Source: Lachnospiraceae bacterium
Lineage (GTDB): Bacteria; Bacillota; Clostridia; Lachnospirales; Lachnospiraceae
Length of the DNA: 60,944 bases
Direction of reading: 5' to 3'
Assembly: GCA_022792535.1 (NCBI GenBank)
Contig: JAAWBG010000077.1
Span: 1-60,944 of the forward strand
Shown here: piece after piece, positions 566-27,956 of the stretch
How the letters are laid out: each line of letters opens with the position of its first letter
Numbering within the stretch: position 1 is the first letter of the stretch
Made by a program: the position numbers and the translations under genes
The notes under the pieces: generated by a model
The model's database searches: none
What the model was told of the DNA's origin: nothing
What the model saw: the letters and a program-made list of their open reading frames with translations, nothing else

Positions 566-1333
566 TCAACTCATTCTGGAGCCCGTCACCATCAATACAT
601 CGCCGCTTACATAGCTGCCCATATCGGAGGCAAGGAATAAAACAGCTTTCCCCACTTCTTCTGGATCTCCCATACGTTTCATAGGAATAGTAGCTAATTT
701 TTTCTCCAACTGTTCCGGAGTCAGTTTGCTGTAATTTCTTTTAATCATGTCTGTTGCTATGGTTCCCGGAGCCACCGCATTGACACGAATATTATCTGGC
801 CCTAATAATTTTGCGGAATATTTAGTCAGTGCAATAATTCCTGCTTTGGATGCTCCATATTCTGGTCCCGTACTTCCTCCGGTTACCCCTGAAATAGAAG
901 ACATATTCACAATACTTCCATATCCCTGCTTTTTCATCACTTCTGTACAATATTTCATAGTCAAAAATACAGACCGAAGATTTACGTTCAATACTCTGTC
1001 CCACATTTCCGGGGTAGTATTTTCCAGATCGCACATATTTGCAATCCCTGCGTTGTTTACAAGAATATCAATTTTTCCCCAGGTATCCATGGTAACTTGA
1101 ATGGCTTCTTTTACAGTATCTTCAGAGGAAACGTCGCCGATCACGAACTTTACTTCTGTTCCCATCTTCTCTATTTCTTTTATTGTATCTTCGCTGTTCT
1201 CATCTTTTTTGATGTCAATGATTGTCATGCCCTTCAGTTCAGCCTGAGCCAGCGTTAAAGCGATCGCTCTTCCGATTCCCTGACTTGCTCCAGTAATGAT
1301 ACAGGTTTTATCTCTCAATGATACTTCAAACAT
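566..1333 (-). CDS. Short-chain dehydrogenase/reductase (SDR)
   Basis: This is a 255-residue classical SDR, the usual length for the family. The NAD(P)-binding TGASQGIG sits at residues 14-21, NNAG near residue 93, and the catalytic Ser plus YGASK (Tyr-Lys) near residues 148-163. The C-terminus has the usual GDVLxVTG segment. It should be a soluble oxidoreductase acting on an alcohol, polyol or ketone. It is the last gene on the minus strand of the polyol cluster, 220 bp after an FGGY kinase, so a sugar or polyol substrate is likely by context. The exact substrate cannot be read from the sequence. It could be annotated as a 3-oxoacyl-ACP reductase homologue, but nothing nearby points to fatty-acid synthesis. 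Confidence 0.88.
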   Translation of the reverse strand: MFEVSLRDKTCIITGASQGIGRAIALTLAQAELKGMTIIDIKKDENSEDTIKEIEKMGTEVKFVIGDVSSEDTVKEAIQVTMDTWGKIDILVNNAGIANMCDLENTTPEMWDRVLNVNLRSVFLTMKYCTEVMKKQGYGSIVNMSSISGVTGGSTGPEYGASKAGIIALTKYSAKLLGPDNIRVNAVAPGTIATDMIKRNYSKLTPEQLEKKLATIPMKRMGDPEEVGKAVLFLASDMGSYVSGDVLMVTGSRMS

Positions 1334-1552: not shown

Positions 1553-3103
1553 CTATTTTAATTCTCTGATGTTTTCTAATGTATTGAATGCAGCCTTCAT
1601 GTCTTCTCTTACAAGCTTATTCTGTACATCGTAAACTTTCCGGTAATATTCTGTATTCTTAGCGTTTGGCTCATAGGTTTTCTTGATTTCAAGCCATTTT
1701 TCCATGGAGTCTTTCAGATTATCAATATCGCCTACTGCATATGCAGCAACAGCTACGTTAGTCATAACAGCTCCGCCTGCTTTTTTCAACGTAGTTACTT
1801 TACTGTTCAGCATGTCGGATTTAATCTGATTCCAAAGATCACTTCTGCTTCCGCCTTCTGTAATGGTAATTTTATCTAAGTTTACGCCCGCGCCGCGGTA
1901 TACGTCTGTTACGCCTATGTAGTCATATCCGATTGCTTCCAAAACAGCTCTCCACAGAACGCTCTGGTCTGTGTCCATGGTCATATTCAGGAAAGAGCCG
2001 CTTGCATTTGCAAATTCTGCTGTTCCGCCGGTCAGATATGGAAGGAAGAGAACGCCGTTGCTTCCTGGAGGAACGTCTTTTGATTTCTCAGATAAAATAT
2101 CATAGTAATCTCCATCATCAATCTTATCGCATACATTATCTCTGAACCAACGAAGAGAAAGTCCGCCTGTACGGATGAAGCCCCAGTAGAAATAGCTGTT
2201 TTCCATAGTACCGCTGTTGAAGATCAGTCCTGATTCCGGTGTGCTCAGCTCTGGTTTGATTCCGTCTGTGGATACGCAGAACATTGCACAAGTTCCTGCT
2301 ACGTCCGCCGCCATATTCGGGCCTGTCAGTCCGCATCCCAACATAGACTGCATGGTATCTCCAGCGCCTCCGCAGATTGCGGTTCCTTCTTTCAATCCTG
2401 TGAATTCTGCCATCTCTTTGGTTAATCCGCCGATAATATCCCAAGGTTTCACGATCTTAGGCATATAAGAACGGTCAACTCCAAGAATATCTAACTGCTC
2501 CTGAGACCACTCTTTTTTGTAAACGTTATATCCAAGCCCCCATCCGGACATAGCGCCCCAGTCGATAAAAGCGTCTTCTGCTTTTAATCCTGCCAATTTG
2601 GAAAGAACGTAAGGTGCGTTGTGCATAAATTTCTTTCCTTTTGCCTTGAATTCTTCGCTATTTGCAAGGAACCATCTTGCAAACATTGCCGGGAACATAC
2701 AGTTTGGAATTGCATTTCCAGTTTCTTCCGCCCAGATAGAATAATTTTTCTTTGTCAGTTCTTCTACGTCTTTCTGTGTTCTGGAATCCAGATAGTTGAT
2801 ATATGGTGTGATCGCATTGCCGTCCTCGTCCACACCAACGATACCGCAGATGATTCCGTCTCCAAAGATCGCCTTGATTTCTGAAGGATCTATCCCTTTT
2901 TCTTTCGCTATATTTACACAGTCACGGATTCCTTTTTTTACAGCGTCCAAATATTCGTCTACTTTCATCTCTACCCAGCCTGGATTGGGGTAATAAAGAT
3001 AGGTGGGGTAATTTGCTTCTGCAATACATTCCATTTCCAGATTGTAGATAACCACCTTTACACTTTGTGTTCCAGCATCAAACCCTACATAATATTTTCC
3101 CAT
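1553..3103 (-). CDS. FGGY-family carbohydrate kinase (xylulokinase-like)
   Basis: This protein is 516 residues, typical for FGGY kinases, with two actin-like ATPase halves. The N-terminal phosphate-binding motif is GFDAGTQSVKVVIY and the C-terminal half carries the family segment ITEGGSRSDLWNQIKSD. The family transfers phosphate from ATP to a hydroxyl of a ketose or polyol. It starts with an AAAGGAG site nine bases before ATG. The SDR lies downstream and two HAD phosphatases and the RuBisCO-like gene lie upstream on the same strand. It is clearly different from the two other FGGY kinases at 15.7 and 25.1 kb, so it probably has a different substrate. A precise sugar cannot be named. Confidence 0.85.
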   Translation of the reverse strand: MGKYYVGFDAGTQSVKVVIYNLEMECIAEANYPTYLYYPNPGWVEMKVDEYLDAVKKGIRDCVNIAKEKGIDPSEIKAIFGDGIICGIVGVDEDGNAITPYINYLDSRTQKDVEELTKKNYSIWAEETGNAIPNCMFPAMFARWFLANSEEFKAKGKKFMHNAPYVLSKLAGLKAEDAFIDWGAMSGWGLGYNVYKKEWSQEQLDILGVDRSYMPKIVKPWDIIGGLTKEMAEFTGLKEGTAICGGAGDTMQSMLGCGLTGPNMAADVAGTCAMFCVSTDGIKPELSTPESGLIFNSGTMENSYFYWGFIRTGGLSLRWFRDNVCDKIDDGDYYDILSEKSKDVPPGSNGVLFLPYLTGGTAEFANASGSFLNMTMDTDQSVLWRAVLEAIGYDYIGVTDVYRGAGVNLDKITITEGGSRSDLWNQIKSDMLNSKVTTLKKAGGAVMTNVAVAAYAVGDIDNLKDSMEKWLEIKKTYEPNAKNTEYYRKVYDVQNKLVREDMKAAFNTLENIRELK

Positions 3104-3240: not shown

Positions 3241-4083
3241 CTATTTTTTATATTTTTTTAACAATTCCCGGATGTCCGCGCCCTGATCAATGCCCTCGAT
3301 CAGAGTATTCATCACTTTGAGCACACCGTCATGCTGGTTGTCCTCTCCCACATAGGAGGCTGTATTTTTCACTTCCTCACGGGCATTCCCAATGGCAAAA
3401 CTAAATTCCGCTGCCTCTAACATCTCAATATCATTGATATTATCTCCAAATACCAAGGTCTCAGAAGGATCTATCCCCAGCATTTCCTGAACAGTCCGAA
3501 TGGCTGAGCCTTTGTTGACGCCTCTGTTGACCAGATCCATAAAGCATGTACCGCCGCAGGCCACCTCCACCCGCTTTTTCCACTTTGGATTAAACTCCTG
3601 ATCGGTTACCTTTTCCACATCTACCGCACGATAAACAGAAAACTTCAGACAAGTTTCCTCCAGCTCTAAAAGGTCCTCTACCATCTGGCAGTGATAGTGA
3701 AATTTGTCTTTCATCAAATTGTAAACTTCTTCTCCGCCTTTTTCGTAATAGGAGACATATCTGGTATCGTACATGCACATACAGCCAGGCATTGCCCTGG
3801 TGTCTTTTACGATCTCCTCTGACATTTCTTTTGTCAGGGGTCTGTGAAACAGTTCTTTTCCCTGGTAAACACCAAAAGCGCCATTCTCTCCAATATGCAG
3901 CATATCATCCTTTACCGGCTCAAAAATCCTCTGAATGCTGAAAATCTGCCTTCCGCTGGCAACGCCGAAGATAATTCCCCTTTCCTGGAGTTTTTCAACC
4001 GCAGTGTAGTAAGCCGGATTCAGCACCGGCGTTCCATCTGCCATCAAAGTTCCATCAATATCTGTAACAAATAATTTAATCAT
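3241..4083 (-). CDS. Cof-type HAD-IIB phosphatase
   Basis: This is a 280-residue HAD-superfamily hydrolase. Motif I is DIDGTL at the N-terminus, a C2-type cap follows, and motif IV is VFGDNINDIEMLEAA near residue 215. The family removes phosphate from sugar phosphates, often promiscuously. I place the start at the second ATG (4083), because a GAGGG site sits six bases before it and directly abuts the first ATG. It follows another HAD gene by 22 bp. Such phosphatases in a polyol-phosphate locus may relieve phosphate-ester build-up; that is inference. Confidence 0.85.
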   Translation of the reverse strand: MIKLFVTDIDGTLMADGTPVLNPAYYTAVEKLQERGIIFGVASGRQIFSIQRIFEPVKDDMLHIGENGAFGVYQGKELFHRPLTKEMSEEIVKDTRAMPGCMCMYDTRYVSYYEKGGEEVYNLMKDKFHYHCQMVEDLLELEETCLKFSVYRAVDVEKVTDQEFNPKWKKRVEVACGGTCFMDLVNRGVNKGSAIRTVQEMLGIDPSETLVFGDNINDIEMLEAAEFSFAIGNAREEVKNTASYVGEDNQHDGVLKVMNTLIEGIDQGADIRELLKKYKK

Positions 4084-4105
4084 GTTCATCCCTCAAACTT
4101 TCTGA

Positions 4106-4960
4106 CTATATAATGTCAAAATGCTTCAACGCAAGGTAAATACCATCTTTATCAATCTCTGCAGTCACATAATCAGAGACTTCTTTTACCGAATCGTAGC
4201 CATTTCCCATGGCAATACTGATTCCGGCATGAGTCATCATGGGCATATCATTGGGGCTGTCTCCAAAAATGTAACAGTCTTTTTCTGAAATATGAAAATA
4301 CTCCATCAGAAAATCAATACAGGAAGCCTTGGTATAAGGAAGGGGAAGTATCTCCGTAAAACCTCCTCCATTTTCAATTAACTGATAGCGCCCGCCCATA
4401 GCCTTCAGAAAAGAATCGTAGTCACAGGATTCCTGGCGGAAGGTTACCAGCTTATTGACCTTCATCCCTTCTTCCTGAATACTCCTCTTTTCTGTAATAT
4501 AGTCTCTCTCATAGATTTTCAAAAAATGCTTGAAATTATCATAACATTCTTTTACCGGGAAATCAAAAGTTTTCGTCTTTACTTCCTGGTCTCTCTCCAG
4601 ATATACTATAGTTTCCACTCCGAAATAGCAGTAGTCTGGTCCCTGAAAGATTCCCTGCATATCGTGTGCAAATACCTGCTCCCTTATATAAGAAATATCT
4701 TCCTGGCTTACCAGTTTTTCCAAAAGAACGGAATCTTTATATTCAATATGGCTTCCGCAGGCATAGGCAAATCCGTCAATGGGAATATCTTCCATACATT
4801 TCGGCATAATGGACTTGGTCCTTCCGGTGTTAATAAAAATAAGATGCCCTTTTTCATGAGCCCGAGTAATGGCTTTCACTGCGCTGTCCGGTATCTTTTG
4901 AGTTCTTCCATCCATCAAGGTCTCGTCTACATCAAAAAATAACATTTTTCTACTCATCAT
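4106..4960 (-). CDS. Cof-type HAD-IIB phosphatase
   Basis: This is a 284-residue HAD hydrolase with motif I DVDETL (Glu in place of the usual Gly) and motif IV IFGDSPNDMPMMTHAG near residue 230. It should be a soluble sugar-phosphate phosphatase. The gene starts at tandem ATG codons after GGGAGG, and either 4960 or 4957 is possible. It is separated from the RuBisCO-like gene by 175 bp containing a hairpin terminator, so it probably begins a new transcript with the next HAD gene. Confidence 0.83.
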   Translation of the reverse strand: MMSRKMLFFDVDETLMDGRTQKIPDSAVKAITRAHEKGHLIFINTGRTKSIMPKCMEDIPIDGFAYACGSHIEYKDSVLLEKLVSQEDISYIREQVFAHDMQGIFQGPDYCYFGVETIVYLERDQEVKTKTFDFPVKECYDNFKHFLKIYERDYITEKRSIQEEGMKVNKLVTFRQESCDYDSFLKAMGGRYQLIENGGGFTEILPLPYTKASCIDFLMEYFHISEKDCYIFGDSPNDMPMMTHAGISIAMGNGYDSVKEVSDYVTAEIDKDGIYLALKHFDII

Positions 4961-4988: not shown

Positions 4989-5034
4989 TTGTACTCTTAT
5001 GAGAAATCTGAAAGGATTTCCCATAAGAGTACAA
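4989..5034. repeat. Single copy of the TTATRGGAAATC palindromic repeat
   Basis: Two arms, one reading TACTCTTATGAGAAATC and its imperfect complement, form a palindrome of about 46 bp that resembles the 40-bp palindromes at 9879, 10043, 15564, 60605 and 60770. It lacks the larger core found at 9.9 and 60.7 kb. It lies between the RuBisCO-like gene and the HAD gene, just beyond the terminator on the minus strand. Confidence 0.6.
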
Positions 5035-5060
5035 AAGCTGTTGCGAAAACAACAGCTTTT
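5033..5060 (-). terminator. Terminator after the RuBisCO-like gene
   Basis: AAAAGCTGTTG (5033-5043) and CAACAGCTTTT (5050-5060) form an 11-bp stem with a 6-nt loop. On the minus strand it ends in TTTT about 75 bp after the RLP stop codon. This suggests that the glycerol dehydrogenase trio and RLP form one transcript that ends here. Confidence 0.6.
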
Positions 5061-5135
5061 GCTTTTGGAAATGAATGGCAGCATTTCCGCTTTTATTTAT
5101 GAATTTTACTATGGCTACCAGATAAAACTCTGTGA

Positions 5136-6476
5136 TTAGATTGCATACAGATCTTTGCTGTGATCTTCTCCGTAAATGCCCCATTTGTTGATGGACCATG
5201 TTAACTCTTTGCTGTTCTTAGCTGCTTCGCGGAGAGGTACGTCATTCATGCATGCGTCAATTGCAACACGGAATGCCTTTGCACCAGCCTGCGGTCCCAT
5301 GCCATGTGCGTGGATACCAGCGCCAACGCCAAGAAGTACGTCGTTTCCGCAGTCTTTCATGAATCTCGGAACTAATCCAGGAACAACGCCGCCGCCTACG
5401 AATGGCAGTGATGGCTTCAAGTCGTAGAATTTTGCCTTTGTGGTGATGATATTTGTAATGTAGTTATCAAAGGTATTGTCAAATTTTCCATAAGGAGGCT
5501 GTGTCAGGTAAATATCACATCCACAGAGTCTCACTAATTTCAAAACAACTTTGGAGCTCATGCCCTGATATGGAGAACATGTGAAGGCACCGTTGAAGCA
5601 GGAGTGTCCAAGAATCGGAACAGTGATATCTGGATCTTCTGCCAGCATTCTCAATGCAGTATAGCCGATACCATGAACGTCAACCATAATACAGTTTCCA
5701 CCGTTTTCGATTACTGTCATAGCGTTTTCTTTCAGTCTGTAAACTTCGTCAGTAATGTTGCAAGCATACATGGTGTTCTCACCATTCTTTGCTGCTTTTG
5801 CTCTCTCTACTGCGTCCATGTTAGCAACTACACGGTCTTTTAACTTATTGAAGGAACGGTCTCCGCCGATCAACTCGTCGTCTTTGATGATATCTACGCC
5901 GCCTGCTGCCGCTTCGTAGAACAATTTTGCTCCAACATCAGGAGTATATCCAGTACAAGGTTTGATCATGTTGTTCAGTAATGGTCTGTCATGTACATTT
6001 AAGATCTCTCTAACTCCGTCGATACCGAATTTTGGTCCTTTGAATTTGTCAGCAAATTTTTTCGGGAAGTCGATATCCAGTAATTTCAGGTAAGGCATAG
6101 ACATAATGTTACCAGTAATGGAAGCGATCAACAGAGGAATGTTGTCTTCAATGTTTGCTACTGGGAAACCGATGCGGATCACATAGAAACGCAGTCCGTC
6201 TACAGAAATATTTACGTTGGTCTGATTCTCATATGCAGGAACTTCATAGATGCCGAGAATCTTAGAACAATATTTTGCTCTTACTTCGTCTGTCTCTTCT
6301 GGAACGTCCACCCAGGAACCAGTGGTCTGCTCAATACCGATGCTGGCTGCTTTTACAATAGCGCTTTCCTCTTTGTCTGCGCCGATCAGATATGTACCAA
6401 CTACTAAGTCGTTCATATCGCATCCTTCGTACAGTGGGTTCAATAATGGGCTATACATTCTGTCTTGTGTAATCAT
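5136..6476 (-). CDS. RuBisCO-like protein (form IV RLP)
   Basis: This is a 446-residue RuBisCO large-subunit homologue. By eye it keeps the residues needed to bind metal and enolise a sugar phosphate: the equivalent of Lys175 (MIKPCTG, K172), the carbamylated-Lys/metal motif IIKDDE (K198, D200, E201), His294 (GHS, H291) and loop-6 Lys334 (YGKFD, K331). Residues needed for CO2 fixation are changed: Lys177 is Cys, Arg295 is Ser, His327 is Leu and Ser379 is not Ser. It is therefore an RLP and not a carboxylase. Known RLPs are 2,3-diketo-5-methylthiopentyl-1-phosphate enolase, 5-methylthioribulose-1-phosphate isomerase and 3-oxo-isoapionate-4-phosphate hydrolase. It starts 28 bp after the DUF1667 gene and is probably cotranscribed with it. 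I prefer the ATG at 6476, nine bases after GGAGG, to the one at 6482. The substrate is unknown. Confidence 0.9.
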   Translation of the reverse strand: MITQDRMYSPLLNPLYEGCDMNDLVVGTYLIGADKEESAIVKAASIGIEQTTGSWVDVPEETDEVRAKYCSKILGIYEVPAYENQTNVNISVDGLRFYVIRIGFPVANIEDNIPLLIASITGNIMSMPYLKLLDIDFPKKFADKFKGPKFGIDGVREILNVHDRPLLNNMIKPCTGYTPDVGAKLFYEAAAGGVDIIKDDELIGGDRSFNKLKDRVVANMDAVERAKAAKNGENTMYACNITDEVYRLKENAMTVIENGGNCIMVDVHGIGYTALRMLAEDPDITVPILGHSCFNGAFTCSPYQGMSSKVVLKLVRLCGCDIYLTQPPYGKFDNTFDNYITNIITTKAKFYDLKPSLPFVGGGVVPGLVPRFMKDCGNDVLLGVGAGIHAHGMGPQAGAKAFRVAIDACMNDVPLREAAKNSKELTWSINKWGIYGEDHSKDLYAI

Positions 6477-6504
6477 AATCATCTACCTCCATTTTTATAT
6501 GATA

Positions 6505-6873
6505 TTAAATTGCATTTATATTTCTTGCAGCTACCAGGTCAATACCTGTGCCGCAGAAGTTACTCTTGATCACATCGCCGATTTTTACCGGCGCTTTTAC
6601 CTCTACCCGGCAGGATTCTCTTGCGCATTCCATCAGCATCGCCTTTGGAACAGCATCTTTTGTCTTCACAGGCACCAGAGGCAGATCTCCTCCTGTTACT
6701 TTAACTGTGGAAGTAAAAATTCTCACCGGAGCGGTAAATTCATTTTTTGCATATTCTTCTCCATTTTTGCATCCGTAACCGGAAATAGAAAGAATATTAT
6801 TGTTGTCATCGTGTTCTAAATGAATGCTGCATCCCTTGGGACACCCGATGCAGATTATTTTAACCTCTGCCAT
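6505..6873 (-). CDS. DUF1667 protein, third subunit of a GlpABC-like system
   Basis: This 122-residue protein has an N-terminal CIGCPKGC cysteine motif likely to bind an Fe-S cluster or metal, and a Cys-rich C-terminal half (CARESCRVEV, FCGTG). DUF1667 genes regularly follow an FAD glycerol-3-phosphate-dehydrogenase-like gene and an NAD(P)/FAD oxidoreductase in Clostridia, as they do here, and probably carry electrons between the subunits. It lies 12 bp behind the oxidoreductase and 28 bp before the RLP. The start has a clear AGGAGG site. Confidence 0.88.
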   Translation of the reverse strand: MAEVKIICIGCPKGCSIHLEHDDNNNILSISGYGCKNGEEYAKNEFTAPVRIFTSTVKVTGGDLPLVPVKTKDAVPKAMLMECARESCRVEVKAPVKIGDVIKSNFCGTGIDLVAARNINAI

Positions 6874-6885
6874 GATCCATTCCTC

Positions 6886-8151
6886 CTATTCTTCGCAAGA
6901 TACGGTAATACTGGAAATATCATCTGACAATTTCATGGTAGGCAATGCCAGATTTACCATAGAGCCAGGTTCTACAATATCCTTCTTAAATTCTGCCAGG
7001 ACATCTCCCTTATCGCTCTTAATCACCATTTTTATGTTTTCTTTCGGATTCTTCACTCTCATGTACAGTTTAATCACTTTCTGAGAGGGATCATCATAAT
7101 GAATGGCCTGAGGAACCACGTAGCCGATATTATCGCCAGGAGTCATCTGAATCGGATTCTTTCTGGGCTGGTAGGTTCCCTTGATATAACCTGCCGCTGC
7201 ATTTCCTGCTAACTCTGCTTCCTGGGTTACATTGTCTACCAGATCATGTACATGAAGAACGTTGCCGCATGCAAATACCCAGTCTACGCTTGTTCTTCTC
7301 TTTTCGTCTGTGACAGCTCCCTTTGTAACTGGATCCAATTCTACTCCGACTTTCTTAGAAAGTTCGTTTTCAGGTACAAGGCCCACAGACAGAAGCAAGG
7401 TATCGCAGGGAACGGTGATCTCTGTTTCTGGAATGGGGTTCTTGTTCTCATCCACTTCGGCGATGGAAACAGCTTCCACTCTCTCTTTTCCGTGAATCCT
7501 TGTAATGGTGTGACTTAAATACAGGGGAATACCAAAGTCATCCAGACATTGTACTTTATTTCTCACAAGACCAGTAGAATAGGGCATCAATTCCAGCACG
7601 CCTTTTACGTTAGCGCCCTCAAAAGTCATACGTCTTGCCATAATCAAGCCGATATCGCCGGAACCTAAGATCACAATTTCTTTTCCCGGAAGGTATCCAT
7701 TGATGTTCACATATCTCTGTGCTGTTCCAGCAGTCATAACCCCTGAAGGCCGATCCCCTGGGATTGTGATAGATTCTCTTGTTCTCTCTCTGCATCCCAT
7801 AGCAAGAATTACCGCTTTGGTCTCTACTTCAAACAAACCGTCTGTCCGGCTTACAGCAATTACTTTCTTATCCTCCTGGATATCCAGAACCATGGTGTTT
7901 ACTTTTACATCTATATCAGAGGCTTCTACCTGATCTGAAAATCTTGTGGCATATTCTGGACCTGTCAATTCTTCCTTAAAATACTGAAGTCCAAATCCAT
8001 TATGTATACATTGTTCCAAAATACCGCCTAACTTAGATCCTCTCTCGCAAATCAGTATCTTCTCTATTCCAGCTTTTCTTGCTTCCAGAGCAGCCGCCAT
8101 ACCAGCAGGACCGCCGCCGATCACAACGATATCATAATTTAATTTTTTCAT
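6886..8151 (-). CDS. NAD(P)/FAD-dependent oxidoreductase of the glycerol-3-phosphate dehydrogenase system
   Basis: This is a 421-residue pyridine-nucleotide-disulfide-type flavoprotein. The FAD dinucleotide fold VIGGGPAGMAAALEA is at the N-terminus, a second NAD-binding fold (EIVILGSGDIGL) is near residue 160, and the later segment VDWVFACGNVLHVHD is typical of FAD-binding ends. It probably passes electrons from the GlpA-like partner to NAD+ or the reverse. I chose the ATG at 8151 because GGAAGGAGG lies directly upstream; the gene then overlaps the end of the GlpA-like gene by 20 bp, which implies coupled translation. Confidence 0.88.
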   Translation of the reverse strand: MKKLNYDIVVIGGGPAGMAAALEARKAGIEKILICERGSKLGGILEQCIHNGFGLQYFKEELTGPEYATRFSDQVEASDIDVKVNTMVLDIQEDKKVIAVSRTDGLFEVETKAVILAMGCRERTRESITIPGDRPSGVMTAGTAQRYVNINGYLPGKEIVILGSGDIGLIMARRMTFEGANVKGVLELMPYSTGLVRNKVQCLDDFGIPLYLSHTITRIHGKERVEAVSIAEVDENKNPIPETEITVPCDTLLLSVGLVPENELSKKVGVELDPVTKGAVTDEKRRTSVDWVFACGNVLHVHDLVDNVTQEAELAGNAAAGYIKGTYQPRKNPIQMTPGDNIGYVVPQAIHYDDPSQKVIKLYMRVKNPKENIKMVIKSDKGDVLAEFKKDIVEPGSMVNLALPTMKLSDDISSITVSCEE

Positions 8152-9628
8152 GGCTGCCTCCTTCCTGCAAAGCAAGTTCTTTTGCTCTCATTGCCAGAAT
8201 TCTGGATTCTTTTCCTCTCTTTGTCACTTCCAATGGAGAGATTCCCAGTTCCTGTTCAATGATGCCTACTACTCTGGGTCCGCAGAATCCTCCCTGGCAT
8301 CTTCCCATGCCTGCTCGTGTTCTGCGCTTAATGGAGTCTAATGAGGTTGCCGGAATCGGTCTGCGGATGGCGTCTAAGATCTCGCCCTTGCTGATGGACT
8401 CACAGCGGCAGATGATCTGACCATAATCAGGATTCTCTGCGATCAGCTGGCTTCTCTCTTCATAGGACAATTTATTCAAAACAATAGGTGCAGGACGTCC
8501 GATCACATAATCTTTCTTCTCGCTCCAGTCAAGATCCTGGCCTACTTCTCTCACAAGTCCCTCTACCATCTCTGCAATAGCCGGTGCGGAAGACAATCCC
8601 GGCGACTGAATACCTGCCAGATTGATCATGCCCCGAACTGTCTTTGCATGGGAAATGATAAAGTCTTCTGTATCTGATACTGCGCGAAGTCCTGCAAATG
8701 CAGTAGTAACGTCTCCCATTCTAGGCAGCTTCGGATATAACTTGTGAATCATTGTTCCGTAAATATTGTTTAATGCATCTGCTGTGGTGGCAAAATCTGT
8801 CTTATCATCCATCAGTTCCGCATTAGAACCTGCCAGAATATTGCCTTCTGTGGTAGGCAGGATGATCATACCTTTGGAAAAAGCAGTAGGCGCAGAGTAA
8901 ATTGCATGTTTTACATGATCGCCATATTGTTTGTCAAACAGGAAATACTGGCCTTTTCTTGGTTTTACTGTAAAATCTATCTCCTCTACCATAGCTGCGA
9001 TCTTATCAGAATAAAGACCTGCTGAATTGATCACAACCTTTGGATAAAAGGTTCCGTTTGTGGTGACAACAGAATCAATTTTCTGATCTTTTACCACGAT
9101 ATCTGTCACCTCTGTGTTTAAATATACTTTCGCTCCATTTAACACAGCATTTTCTGCCAAGCCCATGGTCAATTCAAAAGGATTCAGCACACCTGTATTG
9201 GGATCTAACAGCCCGAATTTTACTTCCGGATTCATATTCGGCTCTGCTGCAAGCATTTCTTCCCGTGTAAGAATCTTCATTCCCTGAATTCCGTTTTCTT
9301 TGGCCATCTCCATCTGATGATTGATCGTTTCCATATCTTTATCTTCAAATCCGGCAACAATAGATCCGATAATATTCAGATCCACATGGAGCTCTTTGCA
9401 GAGATCTGCATAAATCTCCTTGGTGGCTTTCAAACACAACTGACCCTTCAGTTTATGTTTGTCTACATTGTAACCGTCATGAAGCATAGATGAATTTGCC
9501 TTGCTGGTGCCAGTACAGACATCGCTTTCTTTTTCTACAAGTGTAACGTCTACATTATACTTGCAAAGCTGATGTGCAATTGCAGAACCAATTACACCAC
9601 CACCAATAATCAAAACATCTGTTTTCAT
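8132..9628 (-). CDS. FAD-dependent glycerol-3-phosphate dehydrogenase-like protein with BFD-like [2Fe-2S] domain
   Basis: This is a 498-residue protein. The N-terminal FAD fold VLIIGGGVIGSAIAHQL leads a DAO/GlpA-type oxidoreductase domain. The C-terminal approximately 90 residues carry four cysteines in the pattern IICRCE...GRCQGGFCGP, a BFD-like [2Fe-2S] domain. This is the clostridial anaerobic GlpA arrangement, oxidising sn-glycerol-3-phosphate to dihydroxyacetone phosphate. It heads an operon of four genes (this gene, oxidoreductase, DUF1667, RLP) with a strong promoter 53 bp upstream. Glycerol kinase is the next gene upstream on the same strand, supporting glycerol use. A related polyol phosphate is possible because the operon includes the RLP. 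Confidence 0.87.
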   Translation of the reverse strand: MKTDVLIIGGGVIGSAIAHQLCKYNVDVTLVEKESDVCTGTSKANSSMLHDGYNVDKHKLKGQLCLKATKEIYADLCKELHVDLNIIGSIVAGFEDKDMETINHQMEMAKENGIQGMKILTREEMLAAEPNMNPEVKFGLLDPNTGVLNPFELTMGLAENAVLNGAKVYLNTEVTDIVVKDQKIDSVVTTNGTFYPKVVINSAGLYSDKIAAMVEEIDFTVKPRKGQYFLFDKQYGDHVKHAIYSAPTAFSKGMIILPTTEGNILAGSNAELMDDKTDFATTADALNNIYGTMIHKLYPKLPRMGDVTTAFAGLRAVSDTEDFIISHAKTVRGMINLAGIQSPGLSSAPAIAEMVEGLVREVGQDLDWSEKKDYVIGRPAPIVLNKLSYEERSQLIAENPDYGQIICRCESISKGEILDAIRRPIPATSLDSIKRRTRAGMGRCQGGFCGPRVVGIIEQELGISPLEVTKRGKESRILAMRAKELALQEGGSHEKIKL

Positions 9629-9680: not shown

Positions 9681-9709
9681 AGTATAACAACCCAAAATAC
9701 CCTTTTCAA
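9681..9709 (-). promoter_or_regulatory. Promoter of the GlpA-like/RLP operon
   Basis: Minus-strand -35 TTGAAA (9704-9709) and -10 TATACT (9681-9686) have a 17-bp spacer. Just upstream lie the palindrome TTTCATGCATGAAA (9726-9739 area) and the motif TTGAACATGAA (9755-9765), which recurs in front of glycerol kinase. Confidence 0.7.
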
Positions 9710-9754: not shown

Positions 9755-9765
9755 TTGAACATGAA
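9755..9765 (+). promoter_or_regulatory. Candidate operator TTGAACATGAA upstream of the GlpA-like operon
   Basis: This 11-bp word occurs here and, inverted, at 11934-11944 upstream of glycerol kinase. Both lie in regulatory regions next to the tandem SorC regulator genes. A shared regulator site is an inference from the exact match. Confidence 0.4.
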
Positions 9766-9791
9766 ACGGGATTATAACACCTTAACAAGAA

Positions 9792-9870
9792 AGAATCCTG
9801 CTTCGCAGGATTCTCCGCCTGCGGCGGGCCGCTCCTGCGGTTCATTTCCTTTCCGCCGCAGTGCGATAAG
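9792..9870. other. GC-rich hairpins between the GlpA-like gene and glycerol kinase
   Basis: AGAATCCTG (9792-9800) and CAGGATTCT (9806-9814) form a perfect 9-bp stem. More GC-rich partial palindromes built from CCGCCTGCGG-like words follow to about 9870. The base composition differs sharply from the AT-rich flanks. It leads straight into the composite repeat at 9879. No coding sequence is credible here. Confidence 0.5.
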
Positions 9871-10324: not shown

Positions 10325-11845
10325 TCATTTTGTAAATTCCTTTTCACCTTCACTCCAAACCATAAGAGCTTTGATGCAGTTGCGCCAGCCATCATAGAGA
10401 CGTTTTCTCTGATCTGCAGGCATTTCAGGTGAAAATACTTTATCTACTTTTCTGTTTGCTAAAATATCAGCTTCATCTTTCCAGTATCCCACAGAAAGTC
10501 CGGCCAAATAAGCTGCCCCTGCCGCTGTAGTCTCTACATTACTTGGACGTTCTACATTAATGCCTAAAATATCAGATGCAAACTGTGTGATGATATTGTT
10601 ATTTGCTGCTCCACCGTCTACCCGGAGAAGTTCGATTTTCTCGTTCATATCCTGAGCCACTGCATCTAAAATATCTCTGGTCTGATATCCGATGGAATCC
10701 AATGTAGCGCGGATAATATCATTCTTGGCAGCGCCCCGGGACATACCGAAAATAGTTCCTCTTGCATAGGAATCCCAGTAAGGAGCTCCTAATCCTGAGA
10801 AGGAGGGCACTACATAAACAGTTCCCAAGGGCAGTGTGGATTTTGCTGCGAAAAATTCAGAGTCGCTGGATGCTTCTAAGAATCTCATTTCGTCTCTCAG
10901 CCATTGTACGGAAGATCCGGCATTGTATACGGTACCCTCTAACAAATACTGAACTTTACCGTTTACGCCCCATCCAATTGTGGTAAGCAGTCCATTTTCA
11001 GAAACGATAGCTTCATCTCCAGTATTCATGGTAAGAGTTCCAGCTGTTCCCCATGTAATCTTAGCCTGGCCTCTCTCAAAGCAGCACTGTCCAAAGGTAG
11101 CAGACATCTGGTCGCCGATAATTCCTTCTACGGGAATTTTTTCGCCTTCAAAAAGTTCTGGTACATTGGTATATGCAAAATGTCCGCTGGACTCTTTTGC
11201 TTCTGGACACATACTCTTTGGAATATTCATCAATTCTAAAAGTTCATCATCCCAGTCTAAGGTATGAATATTAAACAACAAGGTACGGGAAGCATTACTG
11301 TAATCGGTCATGTGAGCTTCTCTTCCTGTCAGGTTCCAGAGAATCCATCCGTCAATGTTGGAGAAATACAGATCGCCGGCTTCTGCCGCTGCTCTTGCGC
11401 CTTCCACATTATCCAGAATCCATTTGATCTTTGTGCCGGAGAAATAAGCGTCTGCGATCAATCCTGTTTTCTCTTTGATCATAGGCTCTTTGCCTTCTGC
11501 CTTTAACTGGTCACAATAACCTGCGGTTCTTCTGTCGCCCCATACAATATCCCTGTATACAGGAATGCCAGTGTGCTTATTCCATACTACAACAGTCTCA
11601 CGCTGGTTGGTAATTCCGATAGCTTTGATCTGTTTTGGACTTAAGCCGCTTTGAGCCATACATTTTCCAATTACTTCCATGGTGGTGGTCCAGATCTCAA
11701 TGGGATCCTGCTCCAACCAGCCTGGTTTCGGATAAAACTGTGTGAATTCTTTTTGTGCAATGCTGACCATGTCTCCAGAATGATCAAAAATAATTGCCCG
11801 TGCACTTGTAGTTCCTTCGTCGATTGTCATAATGTACTCATTCAT
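10325..11845 (-). CDS. glpK: Glycerol kinase
   Basis: The protein is 506 residues, matching the family. Recognisable GlpK segments are the N-terminal TIDEGTTSARAIIFDH, GITNQRETVVVWNKHTG, GDQMSATFGQ, TWGTAGTLTMNTG and the C-terminal VDGGAANNNIITQFASD. It phosphorylates glycerol to sn-glycerol-3-phosphate with ATP in the cytoplasm, feeding the GlpA-like dehydrogenase encoded downstream. The start at 11845 follows GGAGGAGGTAATAGCA; an upstream in-frame extension has no such site. A terminator follows the stop. The promoter region holds TTGAACATGAA, also found before the dehydrogenase operon. No glycerol facilitator gene is in the window. Confidence 0.95.
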   Translation of the reverse strand: MNEYIMTIDEGTTSARAIIFDHSGDMVSIAQKEFTQFYPKPGWLEQDPIEIWTTTMEVIGKCMAQSGLSPKQIKAIGITNQRETVVVWNKHTGIPVYRDIVWGDRRTAGYCDQLKAEGKEPMIKEKTGLIADAYFSGTKIKWILDNVEGARAAAEAGDLYFSNIDGWILWNLTGREAHMTDYSNASRTLLFNIHTLDWDDELLELMNIPKSMCPEAKESSGHFAYTNVPELFEGEKIPVEGIIGDQMSATFGQCCFERGQAKITWGTAGTLTMNTGDEAIVSENGLLTTIGWGVNGKVQYLLEGTVYNAGSSVQWLRDEMRFLEASSDSEFFAAKSTLPLGTVYVVPSFSGLGAPYWDSYARGTIFGMSRGAAKNDIIRATLDSIGYQTRDILDAVAQDMNEKIELLRVDGGAANNNIITQFASDILGINVERPSNVETTAAGAAYLAGLSVGYWKDEADILANRKVDKVFSPEMPADQRKRLYDGWRNCIKALMVWSEGEKEFTK

Positions 11846-12048: not shown

Positions 12049-13044
12049 CTATTTCTCATTATTTTTATTAATTTCCAACAATTCCCTGCCCAGCTCTTCA
12101 TCAATAATCAAAACATCAATCAAGCCTCCCTTTAAAGCCCTGAAAATGGTATGTCTCTTTTCAAGTCCTGCCGCCACTGTTATTTTTTTCTCAATCTTTT
12201 TAAACTGACAAAGATCAATAGAAAGAAGACGGTCTGCAAGCTCCGTGTTGCATTCTTCCCCTTTACTGTTAAAAAATCGGAGGCCGATATCCCCTACCAC
12301 ATCTTCTTTTAACAGTTTTCTCTGTTCCTCCACTGTCAAAAATCCATTTTCTGTTAAAATAGACATGGGCACCGGATACCAGGTTCCGATTCCTGTAATG
12401 GAAATATTCACATGCTGAAACATCTCAAAAACTTTTTTTGCATTTTCTTTTTCTTTGATCTCGTCCGCCATTTCTTTTTTGGGAAGAAGGGCCCTGGAAG
12501 CCAGATAATAATATCTGCCTGAAAAAACCTTTGCCATCCCTTTTACTAATTCTTCCAAATCTTTTTCAATACAGTTTCCCAGATTCCCATGAAGAGTCAC
12601 AAATTTCGTGTTGCTCTTGTGAGATGGGTTCAAATAAAGCAGCATATCGCATACAATCCGTCCCCAGGAAATCCCCAACACGTCGTTGTCCTGTATGGTG
12701 CGCTGCAAATAGCGGGCTCCTTCCAGGGCAACTACTTTCCGTTTGTCGGAAGGAGAACGATAATATTTTTCATTTAAAGTTCTTGGCGCGATTACCACTT
12801 CTTTCAGGTTGAATGTTTTTTGAATCTCTTCTGAGAGAAGCATACATTCTCCACATGCTTCGTCAATCACATATCGAACCAGTTTTTCTTCCTTTGCTTT
12901 TTTCAACAATCTTGAAACGGTGGTCACAGATACTCCCAGCTGGTCCGCGATGGACTGCTGAGACATTCCGCAGGTATAGTACAGGTGAGAAGCCTGCATC
13001 ATCAAATAAACCGATTGGGTATATACATCTGAGGTCATTTTCAT
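12049..13044 (-). CDS. SorC/DeoR-type sugar-binding transcriptional regulator
   Basis: This is a 331-residue SorC-family protein. An N-terminal helix-turn-helix (SQQSIADQLGVSVTTVSRLL, residues about 24-43) precedes the sugar-phosphate-binding domain, with VLGISWGRIVCDMLLYL near residue 112. The family binds phosphorylated sugars and controls neighbouring catabolic genes. Its ATG overlaps the TGA of the preceding regulator gene (ATGA), so the two are translationally coupled. Glycerol kinase is the next gene downstream, so this protein is a reasonable candidate regulator of the glycerol/polyol genes. Confidence 0.88.
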   Translation of the reverse strand: MKMTSDVYTQSVYLMMQASHLYYTCGMSQQSIADQLGVSVTTVSRLLKKAKEEKLVRYVIDEACGECMLLSEEIQKTFNLKEVVIAPRTLNEKYYRSPSDKRKVVALEGARYLQRTIQDNDVLGISWGRIVCDMLLYLNPSHKSNTKFVTLHGNLGNCIEKDLEELVKGMAKVFSGRYYYLASRALLPKKEMADEIKEKENAKKVFEMFQHVNISITGIGTWYPVPMSILTENGFLTVEEQRKLLKEDVVGDIGLRFFNSKGEECNTELADRLLSIDLCQFKKIEKKITVAAGLEKRHTIFRALKGGLIDVLIIDEELGRELLEINKNNEK

Positions 13045-14048
13045 TCCCCTTCCAGTTTCTTTAAACCCATGATCTCCATGCCCAGCTCATAATCCACAAT
13101 CAGAACGTCAATGAGTTTCCCTTTCAGCTCGCTGAGTATCGTCTGAGCTTTCTGAGAACCAGAGGCAATGGTGATCTTTGTATCTATCTTTTTATATTTA
13201 TCCAAATCAATAGAAATCATTCTGTCTCTGAGATCTGTCTCACATTCGTTTCCATCACGGTCAATAAAACGAAGGGCAATATCTCCTACCACATTTTTTT
13301 CCTGAAGCTTCTTCAATTCTTCTTCCGTCATAAACTCCGGCTTGGCCAAAACGGAACACAATTCTGGATAAAAAGAACCGGTCCCTGTAATGGCAATATT
13401 GATTTCATCAAACTTCTGATAGACTTTCTGTATATTTTTCTCTTGTTTGATAATATCTGCAGTCTGTTTGCTGCTCATAAGAGCTTCCGTAAGCAGTGGG
13501 TAATTCGTCCCGGAAAATGCTTTGGAAATCCTGGTTACCAGTGTCCGCACATCCAGCTCGCTGTCGCAAAAAGCAATGCTCCCATGAAGGGTCACAAAAG
13601 TTGCCCCCACTTTCTGAGCCGGATTCAGGTAATTGATCAGATGATAGATGGTGCTTCCCCAGGTAATTCCAAGCACATCATTATCTTTGATAATCCGCTG
13701 CAGGTATCGGGCCCCTTCCAGGGCAACCAGCTTTTTCACACTCTCTTCATCTTTTTCATCCACAATGGCGTCTTCCCGGCCATTTTGAACTCCTGGGGCA
13801 ATCACAACGTCTTTTAAGCCGAAAGTCTCCTTCAGGCCCTGTTCTAAATGAATGCATTCTACGTAAGGATCTCTGATCACAAACTCAACAATTTTTTCCT
13901 CTTTTGCCTTTTTCAGCAGTCTGGAAACCGTAGTAATGGATATCTTTAACCGCTGCGCAATCTCATTCTGAGAAAGATTCTCAATATAATATAAATAAGC
14001 AGCTTTCAAAACAAGGAATATTGATTGATTGTACATATCTACAGGCAT
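13041..14048 (-). CDS. SorC/DeoR-type sugar-binding transcriptional regulator
   Basis: This is a 335-residue paralogue of the next regulator. The HTH is SQNEIAQRLKISITTVSRLL and the effector domain contains DVLGITWGSTIYHLINYLNP. The two proteins share a similar layout and ending (GxLIDVLIxDxELGxE). A weak AGGAG site lies ten bases before ATG. Tandem, overlapping SorC genes could form a heteromer or respond to two related phosphates; that is inference. Confidence 0.88.
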   Translation of the reverse strand: MPVDMYNQSIFLVLKAAYLYYIENLSQNEIAQRLKISITTVSRLLKKAKEEKIVEFVIRDPYVECIHLEQGLKETFGLKDVVIAPGVQNGREDAIVDEKDEESVKKLVALEGARYLQRIIKDNDVLGITWGSTIYHLINYLNPAQKVGATFVTLHGSIAFCDSELDVRTLVTRISKAFSGTNYPLLTEALMSSKQTADIIKQEKNIQKVYQKFDEINIAITGTGSFYPELCSVLAKPEFMTEEELKKLQEKNVVGDIALRFIDRDGNECETDLRDRMISIDLDKYKKIDTKITIASGSQKAQTILSELKGKLIDVLIVDYELGMEIMGLKKLEGE

Positions 14049-14113: not shown

Positions 14114-14455
14114 TTATTCTTCTATCATCTTTTTATCATTTTCCATAAAGGGCGCAGCCGTCACGATCATTTTCACATTAACCTCCCCAAAATTGGAAAC
14201 TTTATGTGCCTCTCCTGGTTCCAGATGAATATAATCTCCAGGATTCAAAACACATTCTTTTTCATCAATCTTCATGGTGACAGTTCCTTCCAAAATATAA
14301 AAACTTTCCTGCATAATCTGGTGAACATGAGGGGGCACCGTCTCCCCAGGCAACACCTGAACCAGTCCAAAATTCATTCGAGGGCCTTTCTCTAAATATT
14401 TCGGTCCATGATCTCCATGTCTGTAATCTCTGTCCTTTTCATTTAAAATAAACAT
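14114..14455 (-). CDS. Small cupin-domain protein
   Basis: This is a 113-residue single-cupin protein. Metal-ligand motif 1 is PPHVHQIMQESFYILEG (two His and a Glu) and motif 2 is PGDYIHLEPGEAH. Such proteins bind a divalent metal and act as isomerases, lyases or sensors for small sugars. AGGAGG precedes the ATG. It lies directly upstream of the two SorC genes on the same strand. In Rhodospirillum rubrum a cupin works after a RuBisCO-like isomerase, but here the two genes are 8 kb apart, so a link is only a possibility. Confidence 0.82.
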   Translation of the reverse strand: MFILNEKDRDYRHGDHGPKYLEKGPRMNFGLVQVLPGETVPPHVHQIMQESFYILEGTVTMKIDEKECVLNPGDYIHLEPGEAHKVSNFGEVNVKMIVTAAPFMENDKKMIEE

Positions 14456-15680: not shown

Positions 15681-17231
15681 TTATTTATTTACGTGATCTA
15701 CTGCTCTATGAACCAGGTCTTTCATCAATGGCCAGGTATCAACATAGCAGTCCATATAGAACTGATATTCTTCATGTGCCTTTGGATTCGGCTGGTATTC
15801 TTTATCAATCTGTACCATGTGTTCTGCTGCTTCCTGCAGGTTTTTATAGACGCCGCATCCAACTGCACCAATCATACAGTTGCCCAGACATCCTGCGCTC
15901 TGGCTTTCTTTTGTGGTATACATCGGTACTCCGATAATATCAGAATGCATCTGCATCCAGAAATCAGATTCTGCAATACCGCCGCAGGCATAGATTTCTT
16001 TCACATCGTATCCAGCTTCTCTCATGGTTACGATACAATGGTTTGCTCCATATGCAACGCCTTCATAAACTGCTCTTGCAATATGAGCTGTGGTAGTTCC
16101 AAGAGAAAGTCCCCAGAACATGCCTCTTGCTGCAGAGTCCGAATAAGGAGCACGGTTTCCCTGGAAGTAGTCGATCATAACCAGGCCTTCGCATCCTTTC
16201 GGAATCTTTTCTGCCTTCTCTGTGATCAGATCAAAAATATTCATGTTGCGTTCTTTTGCTTCTTCCACCCATTCTTTTTGAATCAGGTTATTCTTAAACC
16301 AAGTAAGGATTCCGCCGCTGGCTGCCTGGCCGCCTTCCACCAAACTGGTTCCATCATACAGCAGATTGGGGTAAGTTCCATTTACGCCAAGTTTGTGGAA
16401 GTCTGTCTCAGACAGTCCAAAGAGGCAACTGGACGTACCAGCGATCAGCGCCATTCCGCCAGGATTTACACTTCCAACGCCTACCATACAGGCAACTGCA
16501 TCCAAGGTTCCTTCTACTACCATGGTCTTTGTGCTCATTCCCAATTCTTTTGCGGCTTCTTCACTGACATGGCCGATAGGCGTTCCTGTCTTCAAAACGT
16601 CTTTGGGGAATTTATCAACAATATCTTCTAAGCCAATTGCTTCGTAGAGGTCTTGTGGAAAACCGCCATTTTTATCGTCATACAGCCACCGGAAAGCTGC
16701 CACAGACATATTCGTGGTCTTTCTTCCAGATAATTTCCAGTGGGCCCAGCCGGTAAGCTCGAAGATTGTCTCTGTTTTTGCCCAATTTTCCGGCTCATGT
16801 TTTTTCACCCACATACATTTGGGGATCAAACTCTCTGCCGGAACGCCGGAGCGGTATAATTTAATAGCGTCGCAGTCTTTGCCCAGTTCTGAAATACTTG
16901 CCGCCTCTGTAACAGCCCTAACGTCCATCCAAAGAATCGGTGTTCTCACAGTATTTCCATCTTTATCTAACAAAATCGTGGTGCTGGATGTTCCGTCGCA
17001 AGCCACTGAAATAATCTCTTCCGGGTCAACCCCTGATTTATGTATTGCGTTGGGAATAGCTTTCTTTAAAGCTTCCCACCAGCCTTTATCATCCTGCTCT
17101 GCCCATCCGTTTCTGGGGAAGATAGACTCATAATCCTGAACATCATAAGCCATATTATTTCCCTTTTCATCAAAGATCGCTGCTCTGACACTTCCTGTCC
17201 CCATATCAATACCCATAAAATATTTTGCCAT
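15681..17231 (-). CDS. FGGY-family kinase, minus-strand module copy
   Basis: This is a 516-residue FGGY kinase with N-terminal GIDMGTGSVRAAIFD, the family segments NGWAEQDDKGWW and VVEGTLDAVACMVGVG, and a C-terminal nucleotide-binding part containing ACGGIAESDFWMQMHSDI. It is closely similar along its whole length to the kinase at 25125-26672, and both differ from the xylulokinase-like protein at 1553. It should phosphorylate a polyol or ketose. It follows the NagD-like phosphatase by 45 bp in an operon of AraM-like enzyme, phosphatase and kinase. The substrate is unknown; ribulokinase- or ribitol-kinase-like activity fits the context. Confidence 0.85.
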   Translation of the reverse strand: MAKYFMGIDMGTGSVRAAIFDEKGNNMAYDVQDYESIFPRNGWAEQDDKGWWEALKKAIPNAIHKSGVDPEEIISVACDGTSSTTILLDKDGNTVRTPILWMDVRAVTEAASISELGKDCDAIKLYRSGVPAESLIPKCMWVKKHEPENWAKTETIFELTGWAHWKLSGRKTTNMSVAAFRWLYDDKNGGFPQDLYEAIGLEDIVDKFPKDVLKTGTPIGHVSEEAAKELGMSTKTMVVEGTLDAVACMVGVGSVNPGGMALIAGTSSCLFGLSETDFHKLGVNGTYPNLLYDGTSLVEGGQAASGGILTWFKNNLIQKEWVEEAKERNMNIFDLITEKAEKIPKGCEGLVMIDYFQGNRAPYSDSAARGMFWGLSLGTTTAHIARAVYEGVAYGANHCIVTMREAGYDVKEIYACGGIAESDFWMQMHSDIIGVPMYTTKESQSAGCLGNCMIGAVGCGVYKNLQEAAEHMVQIDKEYQPNPKAHEEYQFYMDCYVDTWPLMKDLVHRAVDHVNK

Positions 17232-17276
17232 TTTCTAACCTCCTAATATTCTCTTCTCCATATTTATTCTCAAATC

Positions 17277-18071: not shown

Positions 18072-18087
18072 ATCCCTCCTCCTTTCA

Positions 18088-21263: not shown

Positions 21264-21276
21264 GGGGTATTGTATT

Positions 21277-22071: not shown

Positions 22072-22140
22072 TGATTTATGATAGAAAATTTATAATGTAA
22101 TATGATAAAATGATAGAAAAAGCTAACAGGAGGAAAAGAT

Positions 22141-22578: not shown

Positions 22579-22619
22579 GAGTAACCCTCAGGGATAAGAA
22601 TAACAGGAAGGAGATCATT

Positions 22620-23273: not shown

Positions 23274-23286
23274 TTAGGAGGATCAT

Positions 23287-25055: not shown

Positions 25056-25124
25056 ATTTTCTTCACGGAACATAAAAGACAAACGTCTTTTAAAATAAAG
25101 CACAACAAGAAAGGAGTAAACAAA

Positions 25125-26672: not shown

Positions 26673-26687
26673 GAAACGAGGATAAAC

Positions 26688-27140: not shown

Positions 27141-27189
27141 CCTGAAGTTATGATAGGCCCTGAACATTTAATAGTTAGGAGAAATAGCC

Positions 27190-27840: not shown

Positions 27841-27869
27841 GCTGATAGAAAACATAAACTGATCAGGAT

Positions 27870-27921: not shown

Positions 27922-27956
27922 AATGAAATATCCGCATTCTACAGGAGGGGAAATTT

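Follow-up and report, generated by a model that had tools for sequence, protein, structure and literature searches.

The window analysed here, 60,944 nucleotides of contig JAAWBG010000077.1 (positions 1 to 60,944) of a Lachnospiraceae bacterium (GenBank assembly GCA_022792535.1), encodes a RuBisCO-like protein (RLP) directly behind three genes of the glycerol-3-phosphate (G3P) dehydrogenase type. This is a recurring association: the clade to which the RLP belongs is tied to the oxidation of polyol phosphates and acid-sugar phosphates, and the RLP most likely acts on a short ketose-1-phosphate as an isomerase or epimerase. We infer its substrate, chain length and reaction from sequence, where gene order, active-site residues, the RLP tree, module swapping, a change in the partner kinase and separate canonical GlpKs are all observed.

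The RLP gene is the last of four genes that run head to tail on the minus strand:

8132..9628, minus strand: GlpA-like FAD dehydrogenase with a BFD-type [2Fe-2S] domain, 498 aa (DAO and Fer2_BFD)
6886..8151, minus strand: GlpB-like FAD/NAD oxidoreductase, 421 aa
6505..6873, minus strand: DUF1667 protein, 122 aa (DUF1667 profile, 110.8 bits)
5136..6482, minus strand: RLP, 448 aa (446 from the ATG at 6476), with the motif NMIKPCTG

The GlpA-like and GlpB-like genes overlap by 20 bp, and a 12 bp gap separates the latter from the DUF1667 gene. A first-pass annotation of the window had put the RLP gene 28 bp behind the GlpA-like/oxidoreductase/DUF1667 trio; this holds from the second ATG (6476), which by eye is better spaced from the GGAGG than the first, from which the gap is 22 bp. 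The profile families found in the trio flavoproteins are Pyr_redox_2, and DAO with Fer2_BFD, and the GlpA-like protein scores below the cut-offs for both GlpA (150.2 versus 552.8) and type 2 G3P oxidase (277.4 versus 460). RLP relatives from other families, and one from a Treponema genome, have the trio as a neighbour too, so its linkage to the RLP is not chance. The four-gene unit is real; the first-pass annotation had left out a GlpK homologue and two SorC-type regulators that lie upstream of it.

By profile and by residues the protein belongs to form IV, the RLPs: it matches the RuBisCO large-chain profile (PF00016, RuBisCO_large, 166 bits; PF02788, 32.9 bits), keeps the metal site and has lost carboxylase residues. 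It falls under the cut-off of all six NCBIfam models matched, with 313.8 of 409 and 270.7 of 513.6 for the MtnW models, 261.1 of 497.45 for form III RuBisCO and 196.3 of 700 for OiaX. In the alignment K174, K200, D202, E203, H293 and K333 correspond to RuBisCO K175, K201, D203, E204, H294 and K334, and N125 and E51 are also among its active-site residues. The carbamyl-Lys/Asp/Glu metal motif (K200/D202/E203) and the loop-6 Lys (K333) are therefore retained, and the equivalents of Lys177, Arg295, His327 and Ser379 are lost (C176, S294, L326 and G363), both as annotated. With all four of these residues missing and the cut-offs missed, a carboxylase of forms I-III was rejected. The best solved-structure matches by sequence are 4nas and 3fk4, followed by 2oej, 2oek and 2zvi (230.6, 229.6 and 215 bits), the last three being 2,3-diketo-5-methylthiopentyl-1-phosphate (DK-MTP-1-P) enolases by name.

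We then compared these positions, in RuBisCO numbering, across near, middle and far relatives, omitting L099, L100 and L107 (second copies of the loci L035, L078 and L019) and the partial L081 and L108; genes at the loci were called by a longest-open-reading-frame rule, and 11 missed RLPs were translated from match coordinates. K175, K201, D203, E204, H294, N123, E60 and K334 are conserved in 32/32 near and 47/47 middle rows. K177 is replaced by Cys in all near and middle rows and in all six far rows, and position 379 is Gly in 32/32 near rows and Ser in 20/47 middle rows. R295 and H327, which in RuBisCO hold the second phosphate as P2 ligands, are missing from all 85 near, middle and far rows. 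Their loss suggests a substrate with one phosphate, bound at P1, as a GlpA-type reaction would deliver.

In a quick tree of 93 rows, 23 of them in no group, the window RLP sits in a 44-row clade with support of 100. Form I falls on one side together with OiaX and four more reference RLPs (99 SH-aLRT), the study RLPs on the other. MtnW joins L105 through two long branches, for which the program itself issues a warning, and its placement is unreliable; the reference L128, an mtnK/mtnA-linked RLP, was left out of the tree and compared by residues only. The phylogeny that the first-pass annotation had proposed as a check thus gives the RLP a supported clade that takes in neither the OiaX-type references nor form I. 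This placement and the missed cut-offs count in favour of the first-pass interpretation, the place of MtnW in the tree being unreliable.

The gene is the sole RuBisCO-family match in the window's genome. Homologues occur in 13/195 relatives and, within the genus, in 2/29 genomes including the window's own; L012, L016, L017 and L018 from this search were left aside. A scan of a collection of 84,980 species confirmed 382 relatives, of which the best 80 were used. These best 80 come from Lachnospiraceae, Eubacteriaceae, Clostridium, Sporomusa, Desulfosporosinus, Propionibacteriaceae, Treponema, Chloroflexota, Caldisericota, archaea and others.

To see what accompanies the clade, we surveyed its 44 loci. 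At 42 of them the RLP is accompanied by components of a module for making or oxidising a polyol phosphate or sugar-acid phosphate, of which there are four kinds. Pfam and NCBIfam names for PdxA, the DUF1537 kinase, KdgT, PHP, triosephosphate isomerase (TIM), RpiB, the zinc dehydrogenase and the GlpA of GlpABC come from single representatives; phosphotransferase system (PTS) parts, pyruvate kinase, enolase, DhaK/L/M, GlpB and GlpC of GlpABC, GlpF and AraD-like proteins were named by reading sequences. The GlpA/GlpB/DUF1667 trio stands at 18 loci (window counted; L040, at a locus edge, shows only its GlpA), with GlpK in view at 16 of them. Ten loci have GlpK without a DUF1667-type trio: eight carry GlpA- and GlpB-type genes like those of GlpABC, L057 has a GlpC-like match only and L058 none. 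PdxA with a DUF1537 acid-sugar kinase is found at eight, and a PTS with a dehydrogenase at six (zinc-type in three, short-chain in three); L024 and L062 show none of the four modules. SorC homologues are present at 24/44. The trio put forward in the first-pass annotation as the RLP's partner does recur, then, but it does not define the clade, and a strict RLP-DUF1667 partnership was rejected because GlpABC, PTS with dehydrogenase, or acid-sugar kinase with PdxA takes its place.

Between the trio and acid contexts the RLP hardly differs around its active site. Counting as separating a position with no residue common to two groups and at most two residues in each, no alignment position cleanly parts seven trio-context from eight acid-context RLPs, and only one parts trio from PTS context. 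Pseudoramibacter alactolyticus carries sister RLP paralogues, one per context (trio and acid), that share 403 of 448 residues (90%); of the 63 positions around the active site only one is different. Such near-identity fits a shared product without a carboxylate, a ketose phosphate, and fits a carboxylate substrate less well. Outside the 44-row clade another RLP partnership recurs: PEP_hydrolase-like and UPF0261 genes lie 3' of the RLP in L069, L071, L073, L082, L089, L090, L104 and L106, and L093 has the PEP_hydrolase-like gene only.

The kinase that accompanies these modules gives an indication of the polyol:

10325..11845, minus strand: GlpK-type polyol kinase (ATG 11845, frame open from TTG 11893), with Thr at E. 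coli Phe270

With 646.3 bits against 590.35, the window GlpK scores above the cut-off for glycerol kinase, and it carries Thr rather than Phe at E. coli position 270, a residue that we take to contact glycerol and line its pocket in the E. coli enzyme. Phe270 is lost in all 26 RLP-locus GlpKs examined (Val in 21, Thr in 4, Cys in 1) and present in 30/30 canonical GlpKs, one from the window's genome and 29 from relatives, the latter being high scorers, a choice that favours Phe270. Fifteen distinct other GlpK paralogues have Phe in seven and Ser in eight. A separate Phe270 kinase scoring at least 741 bits occurs in 12/13 genomes with an RLP-linked kinase; a check showed the 13 RLP-linked kinases counted here to be identical to those of the loci. 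The window's genome itself has five GlpK-level kinases, three of them above the cut-off, and the best-scoring lies elsewhere with its own trio; 26/29 genomes of the genus have one. Given the loss of Phe270 in RLP-linked GlpKs and the separate canonical enzymes, the polyol of the RLP operon is probably not glycerol, and the PTS-fed variants at 6/44 loci were also counted in favour of another polyol. In a GlpK tree without the second copies L112, L113, L174, L099 and L107, the RLP-linked kinases group according to their partner dehydrogenase, in one clade of 16 rows and another of 9, both with a support of 100. A single clade for all of them is not rejected (AU p 0.271), so convergent loss of Phe270 was dropped as a proposal.

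Other GlpK systems were seen alongside these. The window's genome has three more GlpA/GlpB/DUF1667 trios, at C73, C30 and C28 (L174, L172 and L173), and a GlpK lies no more than 5 kb from each. The C73 kinase is canonical; position 84 is changed in the C30 and C28 kinases, and 135 in the C30 kinase as well, with Phe270 kept in both. Together these make up an expanded set of polyol systems. A GlpK-like clade of eight with Ser at 270 (L159, L160, L161, L163, L166 and L170, also L162 and L165) stands directly behind a split transketolase in 6/8; an RLP match occurs in G066 (L162) and in none of the other seven genomes.

These data allow us to propose a mechanism. The specialised GlpK would phosphorylate the end carbon of the polyol and the GlpA/GlpB/DUF1667 trio would oxidise the neighbouring carbon, giving a 1-phospho-2-ketose. 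The RLP would hold the phosphate in its RuBisCO-type P1 site with Mg2+ on carbamylated Lys200 and take the C3 proton, forming a 2,3-enediolate; reprotonation at C3 would give the epimer and at C2 a carbonyl shift, and neither carboxylation nor cleavage would be required. Misprotonation is a side reaction of RuBisCO of this same type. The likeliest substrate would be a tetrulose, D- or L-erythrulose-1-phosphate. A 2,3-shift of this ketose would yield erythrulose-4-phosphate, which RpiB/EryI-type isomerases would convert to erythrose-4-phosphate, the RLP taking over the task that EryC, EryH or both have in the known erythritol pathway. Tetrulose is favoured because, by chemical reasoning, only with four carbons is the 3-ketose also a 4-phospho-2-ketose leading to erythrose-4-phosphate. 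We hold it reasonably probable that the RLP is of the isomerase/epimerase class, put the fuller proposal, that it works through an enediolate as an isomerase or epimerase and serves to degrade a polyol longer than glycerol, at about an even chance, and offer the four-carbon substrate more tentatively, somewhat short of even. The first-pass annotation had suggested that the trio oxidises a longer polyol phosphate and that the RLP enolises or cleaves the product; enolisation fits the divergent partner GlpK, whereas cleavage found no support.

Some loci carry the isomerases that a four-carbon route would use. A TIM paralogue and RpiB occur together in L028, L029, L101, L102, L103 and L106, and TIM alone in L032 (a fragment), L034 and L062. 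The TIMs of L101, L102, L103 and L106 are 43-46% identical to the TIM of an annotated OiaX locus and 36-39% to the canonical TIM of the window's genome, and share the one-residue loop insertion of the former; those of L029 and L034 are about equidistant from both (30-32%). DhaK/DhaL homologues are found in L034 and L040, and about 20 kb from an RLP in P. alactolyticus. The window also encodes a DerI-like RpiB (22141-22578), which scores 140.7 bits with the DerI model, whose cut-off is 240; it was counted in 6/13 relatives with an RLP versus 15/182 without one (Fisher p 0.0008, uncorrected for kinship).

Several observations weigh against this proposal. Only 9/26 RLP genomes examined show a further match to the TIM family, and some of these matches are weak; the other 17/26 and the window's own have one TIM only, so that the RLP itself would have to make the 4-phosphate. 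The block holding the DerI-like RpiB occurs without an RLP in genome G017, which weakens it as support, and a relative of this RpiB is present in four genomes of the genus without an RLP. Two of three Acetobacterium genomes have the TIM/RpiB/DhaK set close to a different GlpK, at a distance from the RLP operon. As to the enzyme, E60, K334 and N123 are kept whereas MtnW, an enoliser, has Gly, Ser and Lys, a retention that may point to more than proton transfer. Of the far rows, 5/6 lack E60 and K334, with Gly at both. Trio and GlpABC contexts are parted by 29 positions, five of them among the 63 around the active site (53, 54, 291, 331 and 361), and GlpABC-context RLPs may differ in substrate. 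With the far rows, this makes one reaction for all doubtful. At two Desulfosporosinus loci there are also pyruvate kinase- and enolase-like genes, which might be expected of glycerol breakdown, and the GlpA of Sporomusa acidovorans exceeds the G3P-dehydrogenase cut-off (606.4 versus 552.8). Sporomusa sp. KB1 has a Val270 kinase only, and Val270 also occurs in two kinases (L211 and L212) with no RLP within the 4.5 kb fetched.

Given that an opened GlpK pocket sets no chain length, the same chemistry on five carbons has to be considered, with the trio making a pentulose-1-phosphate from a pentitol and the RLP epimerising or isomerising it ahead of an aldolase or a kinase/phosphatase reaction. 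At 12/13 Chloroflexota and 2/3 archaeal RLP loci outside the 44-row clade there are FGGY kinases of the same cluster as the window's three, scoring highest with XylB or ribulokinase models, and L101 and L102 have an AraD/FucA-like gene (by eye). One 2,3-shift of a pentulose-1-phosphate, by chemical reasoning, would nevertheless give a 3-ketose and no pentose-phosphate intermediate, and the TIM/RpiB pair at some loci fits an erythrulose route; we regard the pentitol variant as unlikely. An enzyme like OiaX, decarboxylating or hydrolysing a 3-oxo sugar acid phosphate, is suggested by PdxA and the DUF1537 kinase at 8/44 loci and by the retained K334, E60 and N123. OiaX, the 3-oxo-isoapionate-4-phosphate decarboxylase, and four unassigned RLPs of similar type (labelled "OiaT-like" here) likewise have sugar-catabolism neighbours, and the OiaX locus carries a DUF1537 kinase, TIM and RpiB. 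Those five proteins nevertheless branch apart and keep R295, which the window's RLP family has lost, the model score is far below its cut-off, and polyol-derived ketose phosphates have no carboxylate, yet trio- and acid-context RLPs are nearly alike around the active site; such a role appears distinctly improbable. Since all 79 near and middle rows retain E60, K334 and N123 and the two contexts have almost the same pocket, one could also imagine that the RLP reversibly joins or removes CO2 at a ketose-phosphate enediolate, linking the acid-sugar and polyol modules, an idea that we rate as highly improbable.

An auxiliary role in ordinary glycerol breakdown, acting on dihydroxyacetone phosphate or a triose by-product, would account for a window GlpK above the glycerol kinase cut-off and for L050-L055 (Sporomusa, Desulfosporosinus and Selenomonadales), where GlpA and RLP stand with GlpK, GlpB and GlpC, accompanied at five of these loci by a GlpF-like gene and at two by genes resembling pyruvate kinase and enolase. 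It is hard to square with PTS-fed RLP loci, with the loss of Phe270 in 26/26 RLP-locus GlpKs and with separate canonical GlpKs in 12/13 genomes; on the last two grounds it was rejected as the principal explanation, and we consider it very unlikely. Least credible is an MtnW-like enolase of methionine or 5'-deoxynucleoside salvage. MtnW, the form IV DK-MTP-1-P enolase, shares the profile, the metal site and K175 with the window RLP, both lack R295 and H327, and three of the five best solved-structure matches bear the name of this enzyme. Unlike MtnW, the window RLP keeps N123, E60 and K334, and it scores below both MtnW cut-offs. A search of the window's genome, an assembly 92.7% complete, found neither MtnK nor MtnA, which makes methionine salvage unlikely, and with the missed cut-offs this role was rejected.

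The isomerase/epimerase reading has parallels among known systems. The RLP of Rhodospirillum rubrum, which we take to be a 5-methylthioribulose-1-phosphate isomerase, is a precedent for an RLP that isomerises a 1-phospho-2-ketose, the likeness being one of reaction; its sulfur substrate and gene context presumably differ from those of the window RLP. The erythritol pathway resembles the proposed route in function without the RLP being a member of it: both would use a kinase, an FAD or erythritol-phosphate dehydrogenase and an epimerase or isomerase, erythrulose-1-phosphate 3-epimerase and two isomerases in the one, the RLP with TIM and RpiB-type isomerases at some loci in the other. The 315-residue epimerase of the erythritol pathway is presumably not an RLP. 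That protein is listed in PMC12542623, eryA, eryB, eryC, eryH and eryI are named in PMC10190533, and the route through D/L-erythrulose-1- and 4-phosphate to erythrose-4-phosphate is given in PMC12780249 and PMC12542623. Excerpts of PMC10176493 cite the R. rubrum reaction as an isomerisation and count a handful of characterised RLPs, with proton abstraction, isomerisation, decarboxylation and oxygenation as their reactions; MtnW and apiose RLPs are covered in the part of PMC6302742 consulted. The consulted text of PMC7325909, citing another paper, holds most RLPs to be likely isomerases or epimerases, and proposes a sugar epimerase role for the RLP of a Hakuba actinobacterium from its gene neighbourhood; the likeness is by description only and, unlike at the window RLP, no polyol-phosphate module is described in that text. 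In the open-licence literature we found nothing on an RLP with DUF1667, with glycerol kinase, or with genome neighbourhood and a catabolic pathway, and the review passages found there give no RLP a role with erythrulose.

Further features surround the four-gene unit:

12049..13044, minus strand: SorC/DeoR-type sugar-responsive regulator (profile matches)
13041..14048, minus strand: second SorC/DeoR-type regulator (homologues at 24/44 clade loci, window counted)
14114..14455, minus strand: protein that by eye resembles a cupin (with relatives at L020, L033, L034 and L039)
9791..9815, minus strand: hairpin with U-rich tail between GlpK and GlpA (z -3.74 for 9760-9870)
9681..9709, minus strand: promoter-like site before GlpA-GlpB-DUF1667-RLP, TTGAAA-17-TATACT with TG, the strand's best match
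5031..5062, minus strand: hairpin 3' of the RLP, 14 pairs, terminator-like by eye
4106..4960, minus strand: HAD phosphatase by eye, past the hairpin (relative also 3' of the RLP in L023 and L039)
3241..4089, minus strand: second HAD phosphatase, Cof-type, by eye (relative between DUF1667 and RLP in L020 and L021)
1553..3103, minus strand: FGGY kinase (paired with the dehydrogenase below in L035, L039 and L040; both in P. alactolyticus, L221)
566..1333, minus strand: short-chain (SDR) dehydrogenase (profile match)

The 91 bases 5000-5090 fold into three hairpins with a z-score of -7.17, and 0/200 shuffles did as well. The single promoter and terminator of the first-pass annotation have candidates in this hairpin and the promoter-like site; promoter-like matches in the region are at chance level, however (17 versus a mean of 16.2), and hairpin 5031-5062 is absent from the terminator-like sites of a consensus scan, so one promoter and one terminator for the GlpA-to-RLP unit are only plausible. 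Given the hairpin at 9791..9815, GlpK may form its own transcript.

Elsewhere in the window, 20085-28907 on the plus strand holds genes for an AraM-like dehydrogenase, a NagD-like phosphatase, the DerI-like RpiB, transaldolase, a split transketolase, an FGGY kinase, RpiB, Rpe and a SorC regulator (several names by eye); the block is kept at 69-93% identity in G017, without an RLP, and is probably a separate sugar pathway. Beside it, at 15681-19473 on the minus strand, FGGY kinase, NagD-like and AraM-like genes occur once more, as a set divergent from the first. In Acetobacterium, L218 and L219 have RpiB, a TIM paralogue and DhaK/DhaL near an Asn135-type GlpK, resembling an erythrulose/tetritol cluster outside the RLP operon, and an amidohydrolase-like gene (by eye) adjoins an Asn135-type GlpK in L218 and in L220 of the window's own genome.

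Swapped modules that suggest one product, and altered GlpKs that point to the polyol, give this RLP clade concrete and testable substrates. If the proposal is true, the enolisation half-reaction of RuBisCO would stand alone in the everyday breakdown of sugars by gut and acetogenic anaerobes, and this would bear on the origin of RuBisCO and on gut users of polyols such as sweeteners.

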